Part shown: piece after piece, positions 1 to 41,009 of the stretch
Layout: each line of letters starts with the position of its first letter
How positions within the stretch are numbered: position 1 is the first letter of the stretch
IMG/VR virus record: IMGVR_UViG_3300040962_000437
Coordinates: 1-41,009 of that record
Direction: 5' to 3' (one strand)
DNA: 41,009 bases
From: a virus
Made by a program: the position numbers and the translations under genes
Notes under the pieces: model-generated
Database searches by the model: none
What the model saw: the letters and a program-made list of their open reading frames with translations, nothing else
Told to the model about the DNA's origin: nothing

Positions 1-104
1 GGATCGTTCATCCCCTACGGGGACGCAAACGACTGAAGGAACGGGAAAACGGATCCTGCGAAAGCAGAGAAGGTTAACTTTCCATTCTTTTAGGAGTAAC
101 TACC
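1..104. other. Leader region, no convincing gene
   Basis: The window opens here. One plus-strand frame runs from base 1 to a TGA at 34-36 and ends in the residues YGDAND, so it could be the last codons of an upstream gene, but 11 codons are too few to judge. CCCC at 12-15 and GGGG at 19-22 could form a small hairpin. A good ribosome binding site (AGGAG, 92-96) lies 8 bases before the first clear start at 105. I see no near-consensus promoter in this stretch. Confidence 0.3.
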
Positions 105-269
105 ATGAACACCTTAACACTCATCAAAAAGCAAATCGATAAAGCAGCAGCACTGCACGACGCACAAATCCTCGTTACCAAGTATCGTGGCGTTGATTGC
201 AAAGTGCATGAAGCCCCTGAGGAAACTCACGGCACCTTCTGCTATCGTGGTCGCACATACGTAAAGTGA
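105..269 (+). CDS. Small DUF4278-like protein
   Basis: This codes for 54 residues. The C-terminal half has the pattern of DUF4278, a short family of cyanobacteria and their phages whose signature is a YRG-x-x-Y/C element: here KYRGVDC near residues 26-32, and a second FCYRGRTY at the end. The start is the ATG at 105 behind AGGAG (92-96). The N-terminal part is rich in Lys and Ala and probably helical. The function of the family is not known. A second protein with the same motif follows at 376, so the two may be paralogs. The next gene starts one base after the stop, which suggests one transcript. It is too short for most automatic gene calls, but the SD, the family motif and the tight packing support it. 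Confidence 0.75.
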   Translation: MNTLTLIKKQIDKAAALHDAQILVTKYRGVDCKVHEAPEETHGTFCYRGRTYVK

Positions 270-375: not shown

Positions 376-534
376 ATGCTGAAGATCAGACTTGAGTATG
401 ATCTTCCAGTATATGATCCAGATAAACATGATCCAGATAGAACATTCGCGTTTTTGACGTATCGTGGTGTAAATTATGCTAAATGGGTTTTACTTAAATC
501 CAGAGGCTCACAAAACTGGAAAACAACGATATGA
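376..534 (+). CDS. Second DUF4278-like small protein
   Basis: This codes for 52 residues. The ATG at 376 follows a strong SD (AGGAGAGG, 365-372). An acidic N-terminal stretch rich in Asp and Pro is followed by the DUF4278-type element LTYRGVNYAKW (residues 27-37), close in sense to the YRG elements of the gene at 105. The role is unknown. The stop codon (532-534) lies in the first bases of the terminator stem, so this is the last gene of the unit. A frame that begins inside it at 476 and runs through the terminator is an upstream extension of the gene at 590 and is not used here. Confidence 0.7.
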   Translation: MLKIRLEYDLPVYDPDKHDPDRTFAFLTYRGVNYAKWVLLKSRGSQNWKTTI

Positions 535-589: not shown

Positions 590-760
590 ATGGACAGAGA
601 AAAACTCAAATTAATCGTGAGGAACTTAAAGTCTCTTGTCGATGCACTAGAGTCTGAGGTATACTCAAATGTGGATGCATACAAGGCAGAAAACTTTGAT
701 GATCCCGCACCTAATTACATAGTAGATTACGACGAGGTATTTGAAGACGATGATGATTAA
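590..760 (+). CDS. Small acidic protein of unknown function
   Basis: This codes for 56 residues, starting at the ATG at 590 just downstream of the sigma70-like promoter. The first half is a basic to amphipathic helix (MDREKLKLIVRNLKSLVDAL); the second half is acidic and ends in EDDDD. The frame stays open upstream to 476, but that stretch crosses the terminator, so the shorter start is preferred. The end overlaps the start of thyX, so the two are probably translated in series. I do not recognise a family. A short helix followed by an acidic tail is a common shape for small early phage proteins, which says little about its role. Confidence 0.6.
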   Translation: MDREKLKLIVRNLKSLVDALESEVYSNVDAYKAENFDDPAPNYIVDYDEVFEDDDD

Positions 761-1394
761 TACTGCTAAACTGATTAGTGTGACTCCTGATGCAGAGAAG
801 CACATGGCCTACTGTGCCCGTGTGAGCAACCCTGCTAATCAGGGAAATGAAAAGTTCTCTGGTCTTCTCAAGTATTGTGTAAAGCATCAGCACTGGAGTA
901 TCTTTGAGCAGGCATACATGACTCTGGAACTAACTACTACCAGGGGCATAGCGGCTCAAGTGCTGCGCCACCGTAGCTTCACATATCAAGAATTTTCACA
1001 ACGGTATGCTGATTCTTCCTTACTCGCGGAGAAGATCCCTCTACCTGAACTACGGCGTCAAGATGAAAAGAATCGTCAGAATTCTATCGATGATCTTGAT
1101 CCATTCGATGTTCAAAATTTGGAACTTCAGATGCAAACTCTTTTCGATTCTTCCATGGCACTCTATCAGCAGATGCTTGGACGAGGTGTGGCAAAGGAGT
1201 GTGCTCGTTTTGTGCTTCCTTTGGCCGTGCCCACAAAAATTTACATGACGGGCTCAGTAAGATCATGGCTACATTATATTGAATTGCGTTCTGCTAATGG
1301 TACGCAGAAAGAGCATATGGATCTTGCTCTGAGTGCGAAAGAGATCTTTATCGAACAGTTTCCTGCCGTTGCGGAAGCAATGGAATGGATTTAA
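750..1394 (+). CDS. thyX: Flavin-dependent thymidylate synthase ThyX
   Basis: ThyX makes dTMP from dUMP using methylene-tetrahydrofolate and FADH2 from NAD(P)H, and so supplies thymidine for phage DNA. The 214-residue product has the family signature RHR followed by seven residues and Ser, RHRSFTYQEFSQR (starting near residue 73), which binds the flavin and dUMP. The length is normal for a compact ThyX. The ATG at 750 is followed at once by a second ATG at 753, and either could be used; a TTG at 741 would add three residues. The start lies inside the last codons of the preceding gene. ThyX is common in cyanomyophages as a replacement for ThyA. The call is firm. Confidence 0.95.
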   Translation: MMINTAKLISVTPDAEKHMAYCARVSNPANQGNEKFSGLLKYCVKHQHWSIFEQAYMTLELTTTRGIAAQVLRHRSFTYQEFSQRYADSSLLAEKIPLPELRRQDEKNRQNSIDDLDPFDVQNLELQMQTLFDSSMALYQQMLGRGVAKECARFVLPLAVPTKIYMTGSVRSWLHYIELRSANGTQKEHMDLALSAKEIFIEQFPAVAEAMEWI

Positions 1395-15558: not shown

Positions 15559-15786
15559 ATGGAAAGCATCGAAAAGCATATTGAAAAGGACAAAGAAATC
15601 CTTAGAGATCCGACGACTAATCCACAAATGCGTCGTCATGTCGAGGGAGAATTGAGAGAGTTGGAAGAATACGTAGAACATCACAAAAAAGAAATAGAAG
15701 CAGGAGATCATCATGACCCTACTTTCCTAGAACTTTTCTGCGATCAAAATCCATCTGAACCTGAGTGTTTGGTTTATGACGACTGA
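15559..15786 (+). CDS. CP12-like protein
   Basis: CP12 is a small disordered protein that inhibits the Calvin cycle by tying GAPDH to phosphoribulokinase through redox-active cysteines. The 75-residue product has a helical N-terminus, then GELRELEEYVEHH, which is comparable to the 'AWDAVEELQAEASH' core helix of CP12, and the C-terminal signature FCDQNPSEPECLVYDD with Cys61 and Cys70 (CX8C) and the acidic Tyr-Asp-Asp end that enters the GAPDH active site. The N-terminal cysteine pair of plant CP12 is absent, as in several phage and cyanobacterial forms. Known cyanophages carry cp12. Here it sits between gp27-like and gp5-like genes, and its stop overlaps the gp5 start (TGATG). It could instead be a structural protein that resembles CP12. 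Confidence 0.75.
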   Translation: MESIEKHIEKDKEILRDPTTNPQMRRHVEGELRELEEYVEHHKKEIEAGDHHDPTFLELFCDQNPSEPECLVYDD

Positions 15787-17348
15787 TGGAAGCAAGTACA
15801 CTATTTAATCCTGGGTTTCTTGGAACAAACTTTTTATGGTGGGTTGGTCAGATAGCTGATGACTCTACATGGAGAGATAATATTAGTTCGGCAAAATATT
15901 CGGACAAGAATAGTGTACCTGGTTGGGGAAGAAGATACAAAGTAAGAATCATTGGTCTTCATGATCAGGGACAAGAGACAATCCCAGATGATCAATTACC
16001 ATGGGCAAATGTCATGTATCCCATCACTGCTGGTGGTGGACAAACTAATGCAAGTCAAACACCAAATCTCCGTCAGGGAAACATGGTGTTTGGTTTCTTC
16101 CTTGATGGTCAAGATCAACAAGTTCCTGTTATCATGGGAGTTCTTGGTAATAACTCCCAGACAAAATTAAATCAAAAAATCGGAACCAATAGAGTCACCA
16201 ATACTACTCCTGGAACCTTAGCAACATCTGGATATGCAGATGGTGCTGTTGCTAAATCTGGAACTGCAAGAGAGGTTCCACCTGATGAGGACAAGAGTGT
16301 CATTCAACCTGGATCTCCTGGTGCTGCAAATGAAAATGCTGATGCAGTCCACCAAATAACTGCTGCTGATACAAAACGTTCAGCAAAGTGCAAAGAAAAA
16401 ATTGTACTGATGAAAGCAGATCCTGCAGAGTTAGTTCCATCAGCAATTAAGGGAATTCAAACAGCAATTGAAAACTTAACTGTTAAAATTGATTCATATC
16501 TTCAGTCAATCACAAGTTATGCAGACGCTGTTACCAATACCATTAGTGATATTCAAAATGTGGTACAAAGTTTTTCGCAAGAAATTGCGAAATATATGAA
16601 AGTTATTTTTGACAAAATTTTAGAATATGTATTGAAAGTTATGAATAAAGCTATGAATTTAGTCGTTGCGGCTCTTCCATCTAGCTTAAGATATCAGTTT
16701 GCCGATATGAAAGAGATCCTCACTGATTTAATTCGTTGCTTATACTCAAAACTGACTAATGGTCTCCCTGGAATGGTATTATCTGCATTAAGTGATGCTA
16801 TTGATATTCCTACGCTTGAAAGACAAGCAAGAGATAGAGCATCAAAAGGTGAGGATGAAAACAGTAATTCCATTGACGCTGTAACAAATCCAAATGTTCC
16901 CATGTGTTCTGCAGAATCAATTACTGCCCGTGTTCTTAAATCAGCAAAACCAGAAATAGACTCTGCTAATAACAATGCTGTCAGCAATTTAAATTTTTAT
17001 TTGGAAGATATTAATGATACCCTTGCAGGAATTACTGGATCCTTTCCTGATATTAAAAATTTAATTCCAGATATTGGTGGTAGTGTAACTTCTGCATTAT
17101 CCTTCACTAATATTAATCTTAGTCTTTTTGGATGTGAGATAACACCAAACATAGCACAATCAGATTTCTATACTTTCTGCTCTGCGGGAGATTCTCAACC
17201 GGATGCTCAAGCACCAAGTTCTAAATCTATTGATGATAAGACAGAGTTTGTGGAGACCGTTGAAGGAGCAAAACAAATACCGTATGTTGAACCAACTAGA
17301 GCAACAGCAGATGTAAATAATCAAACTTCTGGACTTGAAATTGATTAA
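15786..17348 (+). CDS. 5: gp5-like baseplate hub/spike base, no lysozyme domain
   Basis: The 520-residue product starts MEASTLFNPGFLGTNFLWWV and has an OB-fold-like domain with RRYKVRIIGLHDQG, LPWANVMYPITAGGG and GNMVFGFFLDGQDQQVPVIM in residues 50-125, as in the N-terminal domain of T4 gp5 and other spike proteins. After that come a linker, long helices (about 220-350) and an ordinary polar end. The T4 protein has a lysozyme domain and a C-terminal beta-helix needle; neither is visible here. The lysis function seems to have moved to the tape-measure-like genes and the needle may be the protein at 22070. The ATG at 15786 overlaps the CP12-like stop by one base, so the two are co-translated. 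Confidence 0.82.
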   Translation: MEASTLFNPGFLGTNFLWWVGQIADDSTWRDNISSAKYSDKNSVPGWGRRYKVRIIGLHDQGQETIPDDQLPWANVMYPITAGGGQTNASQTPNLRQGNMVFGFFLDGQDQQVPVIMGVLGNNSQTKLNQKIGTNRVTNTTPGTLATSGYADGAVAKSGTAREVPPDEDKSVIQPGSPGAANENADAVHQITAADTKRSAKCKEKIVLMKADPAELVPSAIKGIQTAIENLTVKIDSYLQSITSYADAVTNTISDIQNVVQSFSQEIAKYMKVIFDKILEYVLKVMNKAMNLVVAALPSSLRYQFADMKEILTDLIRCLYSKLTNGLPGMVLSALSDAIDIPTLERQARDRASKGEDENSNSIDAVTNPNVPMCSAESITARVLKSAKPEIDSANNNAVSNLNFYLEDINDTLAGITGSFPDIKNLIPDIGGSVTSALSFTNINLSLFGCEITPNIAQSDFYTFCSAGDSQPDAQAPSSKSIDDKTEFVETVEGAKQIPYVEPTRATADVNNQTSGLEID

Positions 17349-33922: not shown

Positions 33923-34660
33923 ATGGCAGTCAATAAGAATTTTGTTGTCAAAAATGGCTTAGAAGTAGCATCGAATGTCATTTTGGCAGATGCTACAACT
34001 AAGAACGTTGGTATTGGTTCAACTCAACCAAATTTCACCCTAGACGTTAGTGGTGGAATTGGTGCTACCGACGTTAGTGTAACGGGATTCACTACACTTA
34101 CAAAAGACTTACAGGTGGGAACATCTGGTAGTGTCTTTTATGTAAGTGACTCTAACAACAATGTTGGTGTAGGAACCTCAGTTCCCAACCCCATTTATAC
34201 TTTAGATGTGCGGTCTCCAGTTTCAACTGGTCAGACTGCACTTTATGTTTATGGTGACATGCGTGTCACTGGTGATATTAACCTTGATGATATCACTCTT
34301 GATGATGCATCTATTCAAAACCTCACAGTTACTGATACACTTCATGTAACTGGATTAACCACTTTTGTGGGTTTTACAACCTTTAGTGATTATATCTTTG
34401 TTCAGGATGGATTAAATGTAACTGGTGCAGGTATCACTTCACCTAACATTAATGTTAGTGGAGTTGTTACTGCAACTCAATTCATAGGTCTTGGTCAGAT
34501 TGGTGTTGGTTCTGAGGGAACTTCCATTGGAACTGGTGTTACTATGGTTGATTTTAAATCATCAAATGCAGGAAATACTGTTGATTTAGCTTCAGGAATT
34601 GCAACAGTTACAGTTCAGACCGGTGCTTCCATTGGTCTCGTAATCGCACTTGGCGGTTAA
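33923..34660 (+). CDS. Tail fibre protein
   Basis: The 245-residue product has the short-beta-repeat style of fibre shafts: MAVNKNFVVKNGLEVASNVI, TKNVGIGSTQPNFTLDVSGG, NNNVGVGTSVPNPIYTLDVR and YGDMRVTGDINLDDITLDDA. 'NVGIGST-x-P-x-x-x-LDVSG' is a repeat common to many marine phage fibre proteins and to the C-terminal part of the gene at 25239. GGGGGAGAGTG (33904-33914) sits before the ATG. Hydrophobic strands at the end (IGLVIALGG) suggest a trimer interface. No enzymatic or receptor domain is visible, so it is likely a shaft or connector. Confidence 0.7.
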   Translation: MAVNKNFVVKNGLEVASNVILADATTKNVGIGSTQPNFTLDVSGGIGATDVSVTGFTTLTKDLQVGTSGSVFYVSDSNNNVGVGTSVPNPIYTLDVRSPVSTGQTALYVYGDMRVTGDINLDDITLDDASIQNLTVTDTLHVTGLTTFVGFTTFSDYIFVQDGLNVTGAGITSPNINVSGVVTATQFIGLGQIGVGSEGTSIGTGVTMVDFKSSNAGNTVDLASGIATVTVQTGASIGLVIALGG

Positions 34661-36791: not shown

Positions 36792-39700
36792 ATGGCAGGT
36801 ATTCCTCAGGTAATTACATCTGATAGAGCAACTGGTGCTCAGGTAATTGATGGCAGTTTAGGATTCTCTGGCACTGATCAAAAGTTGGAAAGAACTCCAG
36901 GTTCTGCAGGTAATCAACAAACCTGGACTTGGAGTGGATGGATAAAACTACATAAGTCAAACCAAGAGCATTCAATCTTTAGTTCACACACTGGATCCTC
37001 AGATAGACTTCATTTTAGAATATCCAGTGGACAAATACAATTCGCTCAAAATACAGGATCATGGGATTTTGATATAAGATCTAATGCACTTTTAAGGGAT
37101 ATTGGATGGTATCATATAGTTGCGATTGCCGACTTTACGAATAGCACTCAAAATGATAGAGCTAGATTATATGTAAATGGAGAGAGACAAACACTCGCAA
37201 CAAATACACTACCATCTAATACAACGACAGATACAATTGTAAATGCGGTTAAGGCACATTATATTGGAGAGGCAAGAAGCTCTACAGATTATTATGGGAG
37301 GATGTCACAGGTCTATCTGATAGACGGACAAGCACTTGGACCCGAATATTTTGGATTCACTGATCCACTCACAAACACTTGGAAACCTAAAAAGTTTAGA
37401 AGAGGAGTCTTTGAGGAACTTGATAAATTTAACACTTATACATGGGCAGAGTCTCAAAATCAACTAAGATATCAGGGTATTAAATTTCCATCATCTGCTG
37501 GTGGAACAGTTGCATGGAAAGCTACTGGTTCATCTAATACTGGATTAAATTTATATACATCAACAGATAATTCTACCTGGACAAGAAGACTTACTAATCA
37601 AACAGTAGATTCTACAAATGGATTAGTATATGAATCATCTGATCAATATGTAATATTGGTGAATGGTACAGATACAAACTGGTCAAATCAATTGCAATTG
37701 TTCTCCGATGTAAATGGAGCAACAATTCATTATTCAAATTCTACTTATCCAGGAAATGGTAGCCCAACGATGAGTTGGTCTGGACCAGGATATACCGATG
37801 GTACAATTGCTTCTTACAATTCTTTCTACCTCCCATTCGATGGAAACTCACCCATCGGTCAGGATAAATCTGGTAATGGAAATGACTGGACTCCTGTAAA
37901 CTTTGGTGGTTCTAATTCACTTGAAAAAGCAACGGGAGCAAAACCCATTCTGAATACTACTCCAGGTGGCAATTCAGCAGCAGTTGGTGTATTTGGAAGT
38001 AAGCAGAATGTAGGATATGCTGTCACTGTCTATGATGATGGTGGTGGAAACAAGTATTATATTGATGGAGTTAAGCAAGATACAGTCACAGGACTGATTC
38101 GTGGTGCTACTTATACCTTTGATACATCTGATAGCACAGTATCATCTCACCCATTTAGATTCTCTGCGACTAGTAATGGAAGTCATGGTGGTGGATCAGA
38201 ATACACAAATGGTGTAGCAGCAATCACAGGTGCAGCAACAACCATTACTGTTCCACATGATGCTCCTAATACCTTATATTATTATTGTACATCTCACTCT
38301 GGGATGGGAGCTGATATCACAGGTATCACCACAAATGAGAAGTTAGCAGATCAATATGCATCAAACTGTGTTATTGCACTTCCATTAGTTAGTATAACAG
38401 ACGATAAAAGTAATTCAGTTAATATTGGAACAACAGCAAAAACTGTATCTCAAACTGGTTCTTCTTCTGATATTGCTGCTAGCACTGAGAAAAGTAATTT
38501 TTATGCATCCAGTGCTAAGTTTAATGGTAATGTTGCAAGATTAGAAATCAGTGGTGGAGGTGGAACTGACGGAGATTATGATTTTGGGACTGGCGACTTC
38601 ACTATGGAATGTTGGTTTTATCCAACAGCAACAGTTAATACAAACAATAGACTTTTTTGTAGTAGAGGTGATAGGAATAACTATCAGTTGATGATAGGAA
38701 GTAACAAATATCTTCAGTTTGATATATCAGGCACAAGTTATACATCTGCAAATAATGTATTTGGACTTAATAAATGGCATCACTTCGCAGCCACTAGACA
38801 ATCAGGAACACTTCGTCTTTTTGTTAATGGTGTAATCGTAAAAGAGCAAGCATCTGTCACCGCTGATTTAGATGAAACTACTGGAATTGATATTGGATAT
38901 GAAAGTGGATATTCAAGTTATATTAATGGATATATGCAAGATGCTCGTGTTTACAAAGGAGTAGCAAAATACACCAGCAACTTTGTTCCTGCAGCAACCT
39001 CCCCAGATATTCTTCCTGATACTCCATCAGGTGTAAGTGGTAGTTCTAAACTCACCAAGATTACTGATGGTGCTGTGAGTTTTGATGGTAGTGGTGATTA
39101 TCTTGATGTGCCTGAATCTAGTGGTGAGTTTGATTTTGGAACAGGAGATTTCACCGTTGAATTTTTTGCCAATGCAAATTCTTATGGTAATGATATGCTT
39201 GGAACAGCAAATAATAGCACTTTCTTAGGTTCTAGTAAAAGTGGGTGGATTGTAAGAAATAATGCTAATCTATGGTATTTTTCATATCAATCTAACAATA
39301 GTTGGATATTTGAAACTACATTCACCACTACTGCTGTGGCCAAACGATGGCATCATGTAGCATTTACAAGATCGGGAACAGATCTTAAATGTTTTATGGA
39401 TGGAATACAGCAAGGATCAACATCCACAAACTCTACAAATTTAATTTCTACAGAGAATTCTTTAAGAATAGGCGGTGGCACTGGTAGCACAAGTAACTTG
39501 TATAATGGATTTTTATCAAATGTAAGAGTAATCAAAGGAACCGCACTCTACACATCAAACTTCACACCACCAACAGCACCACTCACAAATGTAACCAACA
39601 CAAAACTTCTGTGTTGTCAATCAAATGCTAATGCAGGCGCTGCTGCGGTATCACCTAATATTAGTGGTATAAATGATGGAACTGTATGGAGTTCAGGTGC

Positions 39701-41009
39701 TGGTGCTAACTTTGAAGCATCAAGACCAGCAACTGTTGGATTTGATGGAGATATATCAACTTTTACAAGAACAGATAATGCAAGTGTAACTGCTACTGTA
39801 ACTCTTCCAAAATCTGTTGCTTTTACAACTCTCAAGGTAAGAGGAGCAAGAGATAGTGGAAATGGAACTATCACTATAAATGGAGTTGATGTTTCCAGTC
39901 AATTTACATCATCAAGTTCTACGTTAGAAACTGTTACTATCACGGGTGTTACATCTCCTCTTACATCAATAGCACTTACAGGTATAAGTGGTTCTGCTCA
40001 ACCAAGATTTTCAGCAATTTATGTTGATGATGTAATATTGGTTGATCCACTCACACCAAATGGAGATGCAGCAGCAACCAACTTCAACCCATTCACAACT
40101 GACATCAACACAGTTCGCGGACAAGAGACTGGTTATGCTACTTGGAACCCCTTGACCAATAGAGGTGTAGTCACTACAAGCGATGGAAACCTTACTGCTA
40201 ATGCGATAAACTCGGGTTATGGATATACACTTAGCACGATTGCGGTAAGTAGTGGCAAGTATTACTGTGAAATCAGTTTTGAAGGGACAATGGCTCACAG
40301 TGTTAATTACAACTACATTGGTATCGTTCCCACTGATTCTGCCGCTATTTACACTGGTCAAGATATATTCCGTGCTAATGGAGCGTTGTCTATCGACTCC
40401 AATAGCAGTGTAATCAGAGGAACTATTGGCACCGGCAGTGGCGAGACCAATAACACTTATCAGTCTTCTTATGGATTTGATGAGAATGACACTATTGGAA
40501 TTGCCATTGATTGTGATACACCGCAAGTAACGTTCTACAAAAATGGCACTAGCATTGGAACTTTTCCACACACAATGCAGTCAAATAAGTCGTGGGTTTT
40601 ATTTGTAAATGATTGGGCGAATGCCGCTGATTTTACTGGATATATCCTTAATGCTGGACAAAAACCCTTCAAGTTCCCACCACCTGATGGTTTCCAACCA
40701 CCGAATGCTGCTAATGTTCGTCCAGAGACTGTGATTTCACGTCCTGATCAGTATGTTGGGGTGACGACTTATACAGGAAATAACACTGTTGGTAGAATAA
40801 TTGATATTGGTAGAAATGCTGACCTCGTTTGGGTCAAGAAAAGAACTGCCGAAAATCACATATTGGTAGATACAGTAAGAGGTGAAAATAACTTCTTAAT
40901 GTCGGATTCTACTAACGCAGCTAATACAAGTGGTGGACCTATTACTGGAATAGGAGCAACTGTTTATAATGGATTTATTGTAGACAATAATGGATATGTA
41001 AATGCTAAT
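36792..41009 (+). CDS. Large tail fibre/adhesin, truncated by window end
   Basis: The frame is open for at least 1406 codons to the last base, so the C-terminus is missing. In order: residues about 25-200 a LamG/concanavalin-like domain (WTWSGWIKLHK, RLYVNGE); an F5/8-like or spacer part; about 405-515 a cupredoxin-like domain (TVYDDGGGNKYYIDGVKQDT; His453, and CTSHSGMG with Cys499, His502, Met505); about 575-735 and 755-920 two LamG domains (DFGTGDFTMECWFYP, WHHFAATR, DFGTGDFTVEFFANA, WHHVAFTR, RVIKGTALYTSNFTPP); then a SPRY-like segment (GKYYCEISFEG, DENDTIGIAIDCDT) and a C-terminal 'DLVWVKKRT'-type segment. It would bind host-surface sugars or proteins. A GGAG is at 36779-36782. The start AAATGGCAGG at 36792 is the first after the preceding stop. 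Confidence 0.78.
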   Translation, partial: MAGIPQVITSDRATGAQVIDGSLGFSGTDQKLERTPGSAGNQQTWTWSGWIKLHKSNQEHSIFSSHTGSSDRLHFRISSGQIQFAQNTGSWDFDIRSNALLRDIGWYHIVAIADFTNSTQNDRARLYVNGERQTLATNTLPSNTTTDTIVNAVKAHYIGEARSSTDYYGRMSQVYLIDGQALGPEYFGFTDPLTNTWKPKKFRRGVFEELDKFNTYTWAESQNQLRYQGIKFPSSAGGTVAWKATGSSNTGLNLYTSTDNSTWTRRLTNQTVDSTNGLVYESSDQYVILVNGTDTNWSNQLQLFSDVNGATIHYSNSTYPGNGSPTMSWSGPGYTDGTIASYNSFYLPFDGNSPIGQDKSGNGNDWTPVNFGGSNSLEKATGAKPILNTTPGGNSAAVGVFGSKQNVGYAVTVYDDGGGNKYYIDGVKQDTVTGLIRGATYTFDTSDSTVSSHPFRFSATSNGSHGGGSEYTNGVAAITGAATTITVPHDAPNTLYYYCTSHSGMGADITGITTNEKLADQYASNCVIALPLVSITDDKSNSVNIGTTAKTVSQTGSSSDIAASTEKSNFYASSAKFNGNVARLEISGGGGTDGDYDFGTGDFTMECWFYPTATVNTNNRLFCSRGDRNNYQLMIGSNKYLQFDISGTSYTSANNVFGLNKWHHFAATRQSGTLRLFVNGVIVKEQASVTADLDETTGIDIGYESGYSSYINGYMQDARVYKGVAKYTSNFVPAATSPDILPDTPSGVSGSSKLTKITDGAVSFDGSGDYLDVPESSGEFDFGTGDFTVEFFANANSYGNDMLGTANNSTFLGSSKSGWIVRNNANLWYFSYQSNNSWIFETTFTTTAVAKRWHHVAFTRSGTDLKCFMDGIQQGSTSTNSTNLISTENSLRIGGGTGSTSNLYNGFLSNVRVIKGTALYTSNFTPPTAPLTNVTNTKLLCCQSNANAGAAAVSPNISGINDGTVWSSGAGANFEASRPATVGFDGDISTFTRTDNASVTATVTLPKSVAFTTLKVRGARDSGNGTITINGVDVSSQFTSSSSTLETVTITGVTSPLTSIALTGISGSAQPRFSAIYVDDVILVDPLTPNGDAAATNFNPFTTDINTVRGQETGYATWNPLTNRGVVTTSDGNLTANAINSGYGYTLSTIAVSSGKYYCEISFEGTMAHSVNYNYIGIVPTDSAAIYTGQDIFRANGALSIDSNSSVIRGTIGTGSGETNNTYQSSYGFDENDTIGIAIDCDTPQVTFYKNGTSIGTFPHTMQSNKSWVLFVNDWANAADFTGYILNAGQKPFKFPPPDGFQPPNAANVRPETVISRPDQYVGVTTYTGNNTVGRIIDIGRNADLVWVKKRTAENHILVDTVRGENNFLMSDSTNAANTSGGPITGIGATVYNGFIVDNNGYVNAN

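Follow-up and report, generated by a model that had tools for sequence, protein, structure and literature searches.

The tail-fibre protein encoded at one end of a marine virus contig carries, between its first and second LamG domains, a domain that almost certainly adopts the cupredoxin fold, as judged from sequence profiles and structural models, and that retains an intact predicted type-1-like metal site. We regard as reasonably probable the whole statement that this cupredoxin is a displayed, swappable accessory β-barrel, putatively stiffened by metal. The window analysed here is the entire virus contig record (IMG/VR IMGVR_UViG_3300040962_000437; 41,009 nucleotides), the genes of which specify a contractile tail and baseplate (tail tube, tube cap, baseplate hub with tail lysozyme and tail fibres), and the virus that carries the fibre is a marine virus of bacteria, a myovirus. 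The baseplate hub and tail lysozyme protein encoded at 15786–17348 is nearest to those of the Synechococcus phages Bellamy and S-SM2 (40–42% identity), and because of this similarity the virus may be a relative of the cyanophages. The fibre open reading frame encodes 1406 residues and is open to the contig end, its 3′ end being cut. The placement between LamG domains given in a preliminary description made from the sequence alone was right, and a search with the fibre segment upstream of the cupredoxin (residues 203–405) gave no useful relatives. The features are collected in Table 1.

Table 1. Features of the fibre gene and its surroundings in the window, with the evidence for each.
Feature	Position (nt)	Residues	Strand	Evidence
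Fibre/baseplate-region protein without cupredoxin	33923..34660		+	Orthologue comparison
Tail-fibre/virion structural protein with cupredoxin	36792..41009		+	ORF; PHROG matches (virion structural, tail proteins)
N-terminal LamG (Laminin_G_3), lectin-like	36882..37325	31-178	+	Pfam PF13385, E 1.7e-15
Conserved DNA island centred on the cupredoxin	37818..38393		+	blastn, per-domain dN/dS; ~90% nt identity in three relatives, flanks diverged
Cupredoxin domain (predicted)	38007..38327	406-512	+	AlphaFold2 pLDDT 86.9; Foldseek; profile A3 against PDB
Predicted N-terminal copper ligand (SHPFRF)	38148..38150	His453	+	Invariant in A3
Predicted copper thiolate ligand; sole Cys of the domain	38286..38288	Cys499	+	Invariant in A3
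Predicted C-terminal copper ligand	38295..38297	His502	+	Invariant in A3
Predicted axial ligand	38304..38306	Met505	+	96% conserved
Second LamG	38580..38960	597-723	+	PF13385, E 7.6e-22
Third LamG	39084..39536	765-915	+	PF13385, E 1.7e-17
SPRY-like domain	40395..40577		+	PF00622, E 7.9e-7
Start of DUF7483, cut by the contig end	40743..41003		+	PF24299, E 2.8e-14

AlphaFold2 prediction for the window domain together with 47 relatives yielded a confident model (Table 1), for which Foldseek returned Shewanella SO1698 first, followed by rusticyanin, three-domain nitrite reductase, plastocyanin and amicyanin. For a second model (pLDDT 87), built on a diverged metagenomic copy from the sister phage L003 that is 36% identical to the window copy (alignment A4), the top Foldseek matches were plastocyanins and the cupredoxin AcoP. 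From the two models, the Foldseek probability to rusticyanin, plastocyanin and amicyanin was 0.98–1.00, with moderate TM-scores to known cupredoxins (0.5–0.6) and E-values of only about 1e-3. Profile searches pointed the same way. In an hmmsearch of the PDB, a profile of 32 diverse copies of the domain (A3) matched type-1 copper proteins at the top, namely nitrite reductase (E = 3.6e-5), fern plastocyanin (9.7e-5), rusticyanin (2e-4) and amicyanin (approximately 2e-3), and in the A3 alignments to plastocyanin and rusticyanin the N-terminal His and the loop Cys and His fall on those of the two copper proteins. Comparison by hhalign with 22 cellular Copper-bind (PF00127) proteins gave an E-value of 1.9e-6. 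The cupredoxin fold suggested in the preliminary description is thus upheld by structure prediction and by the A3 profile.

Among the hmmsearch profiles, significance was reached by the diverse A3 only: a profile of close relatives alone (A1) gave no significant cupredoxin match, and single-sequence searches of Pfam and PDB did no better, the leading PDB hits being fortuitous and Anabaena plastocyanin reaching E = 0.95. The window copy has no match to PF00127; of 48 relatives, 9 match it weakly (E = 0.0014 at best), and the highest-scoring cyanophage copy, at 21.0 bits, falls just short of the gathering cut-off of 21.2 bits; matches to Cupredoxin_1 (PF13473) fell below the curated cut-off. Ig-like Pfam families gave no match for the domain, the best structural matches of which are cupredoxins, and weak matches were found to PF25489 (At5g54830-like), a family detected in no control genome, for which reason they carry no weight here. 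A search of BFVD with the model matched A0A481Z6J5, A0A481YVH3 and A0A481Z7Q7, free-standing 'beta-sandwich' proteins of pithovirus- and marseillevirus-like giant viruses, at 19–30% identity.

The spacing C-x2-H-x2-M is that of the amicyanin loop, and the loop of the phage domain is of this type. The preliminary description had recognized a copper-site motif of His453, Cys499, His502 and Met505 at about residues 405–515; its positions proved exact, and the segment resolved into a compact domain (Table 1). The pattern C..H..M occurs once in the fibre protein, and the sole occurrence of [YF].C..H..M in all six frames of the window is the cupredoxin segment. Four columns of A3 are invariant, namely His48, Tyr92, Cys94 and His97 (numbering of the window domain), and Met100 is nearly so, the natural variants at the Met505 position being one Gln (L283) and one Leu (L210). 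By sequence comparison the motif exceeds chance, the four positions being among the most conserved of a family whose copies have a median pairwise identity of 55%. One alternative ligand was rejected: hhalign with A1 aligned His465 rather than His453 to the cellular ligand, but gp9-type copies, and others besides, retain the His453-Cys-His-Met set and lack His465.

All four ligands are kept in 162 of 169 copies in which the four positions were aligned (a set made non-redundant at 90%, drawn from the loci retrieved up to that stage). One scan had been anchored on the Cys-His motif, and as a control for this bias a retrieval query lacking the Cys-His-Met loop was used; 67 of the 69 unique copies that it recovered kept the four ligands. 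The free variation among relatives that the preliminary description had named as evidence against a copper site was therefore not seen. The seven exceptions retain 0, 0, 0, 1, 1, 2 and 3 ligands, and when independent losses were permuted, at least five copies with one ligand or none arose in 0 of 20,000 shuffles. Such loss as a set with the barrel kept is what a shared metal site would predict, and falls short of proof. In the degenerate copies L045, L279, L047, L056 and L044 most or all ligands are gone and Ser stands at the Cys position; in the first three of these, the degenerate cupredoxin is followed by an intact copy in the same protein. A single Cys is present in 159 of the 162 intact domains and therefore lies outside any intradomain disulphide. 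Taken together, the sequences make metal binding by the domain quite likely, and the metal is probably copper; zinc would fit the same ligand set.

Searches of phage records by tblastn revealed how far the domain extends. The window copy matched 83 records, the named ones being picocyanobacterial, Pelagibacter and uncultured marine phages, and a gp9-type copy matched 339, of which 338 are labelled Synechococcus, Prochlorococcus, 'cyanophage' or 'marine' and the lone exception is a lake phage of Actinomycetia. In cyanophage gp9, annotated as the baseplate wedge tail-fibre connector, the cupredoxin forms the C-terminal domain (the N terminus of Syn9 gp9 matches Pfam T4_gp9_10_N), and all 13 gp9-type copies sampled keep the four ligands. 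If its copy number is as in T4, each virion would contain 18 gp9 chains. Other carriers are gp10-like proteins, hypothetical virion proteins and proximal tail fibres, together with tail fibres of the pelagiphages HTVC028P and EXVC032P. The S-SCSM1 copy is within a protein that its GenBank record labels a virion protein; the virion proteome of this phage has been analysed by mass spectrometry (PMC9602691). Among the first 600 candidates listed by each of two IMG/VR scans, 590 and 581 stretches encode relatives. The domain is a widespread virion module, most likely exchanged horizontally, and reaches beyond one fibre, which the preliminary description could not have seen.

Comparison with related phages revealed the behaviour of a cassette. 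Between the window and three relatives the cupredoxin region is 96% identical in nucleotide sequence (dS 0.11–0.19), whereas elsewhere in this gene identity is 36–62% (dS approximately 0.8–1.3) for the three LamG domains and for the middle segment that follows the first of them. For L003 and L004, the dS of the cupredoxin (0.11–0.12) is low relative to that of neighbouring genes (approximately 0.6–1.7), and the domain has for this reason most likely been exchanged between diverged phages. Compared with L002, L003 and L004, the fibre gene as a whole is a mosaic, with conserved islands at 37311–37393, 37818–38393, 38928–39167, 39543–39626 and 40072–40771 separated by strongly diverged segments, and only L002 has a near-identical SPRY region. 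In addition, the L003 orthologue of the protein encoded at 33923–34660 contains an extra, diverged cupredoxin cleanly inserted at a point equivalent to approximately 34478–34510 of the window, ahead of a final stretch of 49 residues that shares 86% identity with the window protein; the orthologues in the window, L002 and L004 are without it. Some proteins carry tandem arrays of two or three cupredoxin copies.

The main rival to an accessory barrel is docking at the host surface, in which the domain would derive from host-type surface cupredoxins, such as lipoprotein-like proteins of SAR86, and bind their partner or an envelope metal-acquisition receptor as a copper 'Ferrojan horse'. Cellular relatives exist: SAR86-order genomes gave matches, some of them weak, in 51 of 101 cases, compared with 4 of 190 in the class of the Pelagibacter genome, and the SAR86 relatives include proteins of approximately 180 residues with a lipobox-like N terminus as well as open reading frames of more than 3,400 residues. 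(The SAR86 loci L276–L290 include short lipoprotein-like carriers with Gly-rich linkers, and in L283 the axial Met is replaced by Gln.) The domain is moreover placed in proteins of host contact (fibres, gp9 and the proximal fibre), and iron-binding HxH motifs in phage fibres, together with the Trojan-horse idea, have already been published (PMC11705849). However, gp9 is annotated as a baseplate connector rather than as a receptor-binding tip, picocyanobacterial genomes were absent from one pattern-limited genome scan, and a near-constant domain amid diverged flanking fibre domains is the opposite of what a receptor-specificity domain would display. We consider docking unlikely, although it is less so than a metal-free structural or a redox role.

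Quite improbable, in our estimate, is a purely structural β-sandwich that binds no metal, the ligands of which would persist because the copies share a recent ancestor or because these residues make up the top of the barrel by hydrogen bonding. Apo-cupredoxins do fold without metal, and virion proteins do hold degenerate copies that lack the ligands; yet the four positions are otherwise fixed at the median identity given above and are lost together, and the version invoking recent origin is excluded by copies that still keep the ligands at divergence to below 30% identity. A role in redox chemistry or copper handling, whether carrying electrons, sensing or buffering copper, or protecting the virion from copper and oxygen radicals, would suit the full type-1 ligand set including the axial Met and the Met-to-Gln variant of the cellular copy L283, which resembles stellacyanin, but it is very improbable, with no redox partner domain recognized in the fibre or in the scanned neighbouring structural proteins and with tens of sites per virion being few for buffering.

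The accessory barrel that we favour would act at the surface of the tail, either as a compact spacer or in adhesion, in the manner of phage Ig-like domains; on this analogy, we give its role as a stabilized accessory domain about even chances. Phage proteins fold in a cytoplasm in which copper is tightly buffered, and the site may accordingly stay empty until lysis and load outside the cell. The bound metal would then tie the ligand loop to the barrel and stiffen a domain that has no disulphide. Some virion copies lack the whole site, so that the barrel can manage metal-free, which speaks against this reading. A further proposal, which we regard as distinctly unlikely, is that the virions of many marine cyanophages and pelagiphages are copper proteins, with putative type-1 centres on gp9, gp10-like proteins and fibres that are loaded after lysis from seawater or the host envelope, and with occupancy or redox state affecting fibre deployment or adsorption. 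Were this true, phage infection would be tied to ocean copper chemistry.

The phage domain shares with amicyanin, plastocyanin and pseudoazurin (PF00127, Copper-bind; PF13473, Cupredoxin_1) the cupredoxin barrel, a His just before a strand and the Cys-His-Met loop, as well as profile similarity; it differs in scoring below the curated cut-offs, in being embedded in virion proteins and in having Pro after the first His, where cellular relatives mostly have Asn or Asp. The Ig-like domains found on phage virions (Fraser et al. 2006, as cited by PMC13370021), as in Hoc-type adhesins, have been described as accessory adhesion units (PMC13370021). They are likewise mobile, optional and displayed β-sandwiches, single or in tandem, and the L003 insertion, the near-identity across diverged phages and the tandem arrays give the phage cupredoxin the same mobile and optional character. 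This likeness supports the view that the domain may work like an Ig-like domain, not that it is one: here the predicted fold is that of cupredoxins, a metal-ligand set is conserved and the carriers are almost only marine phages. Metal sites in tail fibres are also described for T4 gp37 and marine fibres, as HxH iron sites (PMC11705849), but they bind iron through paired His residues between fibre strands, in contrast to the predicted Cys-His-His-Met site of a single-chain barrel. Plastocyanin PetE of cyanophages (PMC3037559) is a type-1 copper protein from the same kind of phages; it is, however, the product of a separate auxiliary metabolic gene and a free electron carrier for host photosynthesis, whereas the cupredoxin described here is a virion domain.

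No entry naming the domain was found in Pfam, NCBIfam or PHROG, and literature searches for cupredoxins or copper with phage tails, cyanophages, virions or baseplates yielded nothing relevant within a coverage that mostly excludes subscription papers. We found no earlier description of a cupredoxin superfamily member used as a mobile virion display domain, which is how we classify it. A hitherto unnamed domain, present at the C terminus of gp9 in hundreds of sequenced T4-like phages of picocyanobacteria and in many fibre proteins from the ocean, thereby gains a predicted fold and a candidate metal site, and the near-identical cassette within highly diverged fibres shows how marine phages swap tail parts. 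Should the domain bind copper, some viruses that rank among the most abundant in the sea would carry tens of copper sites per particle, and an effect of metal availability on the stability and adsorption of marine phages, so far argued mainly for iron, would become directly testable.
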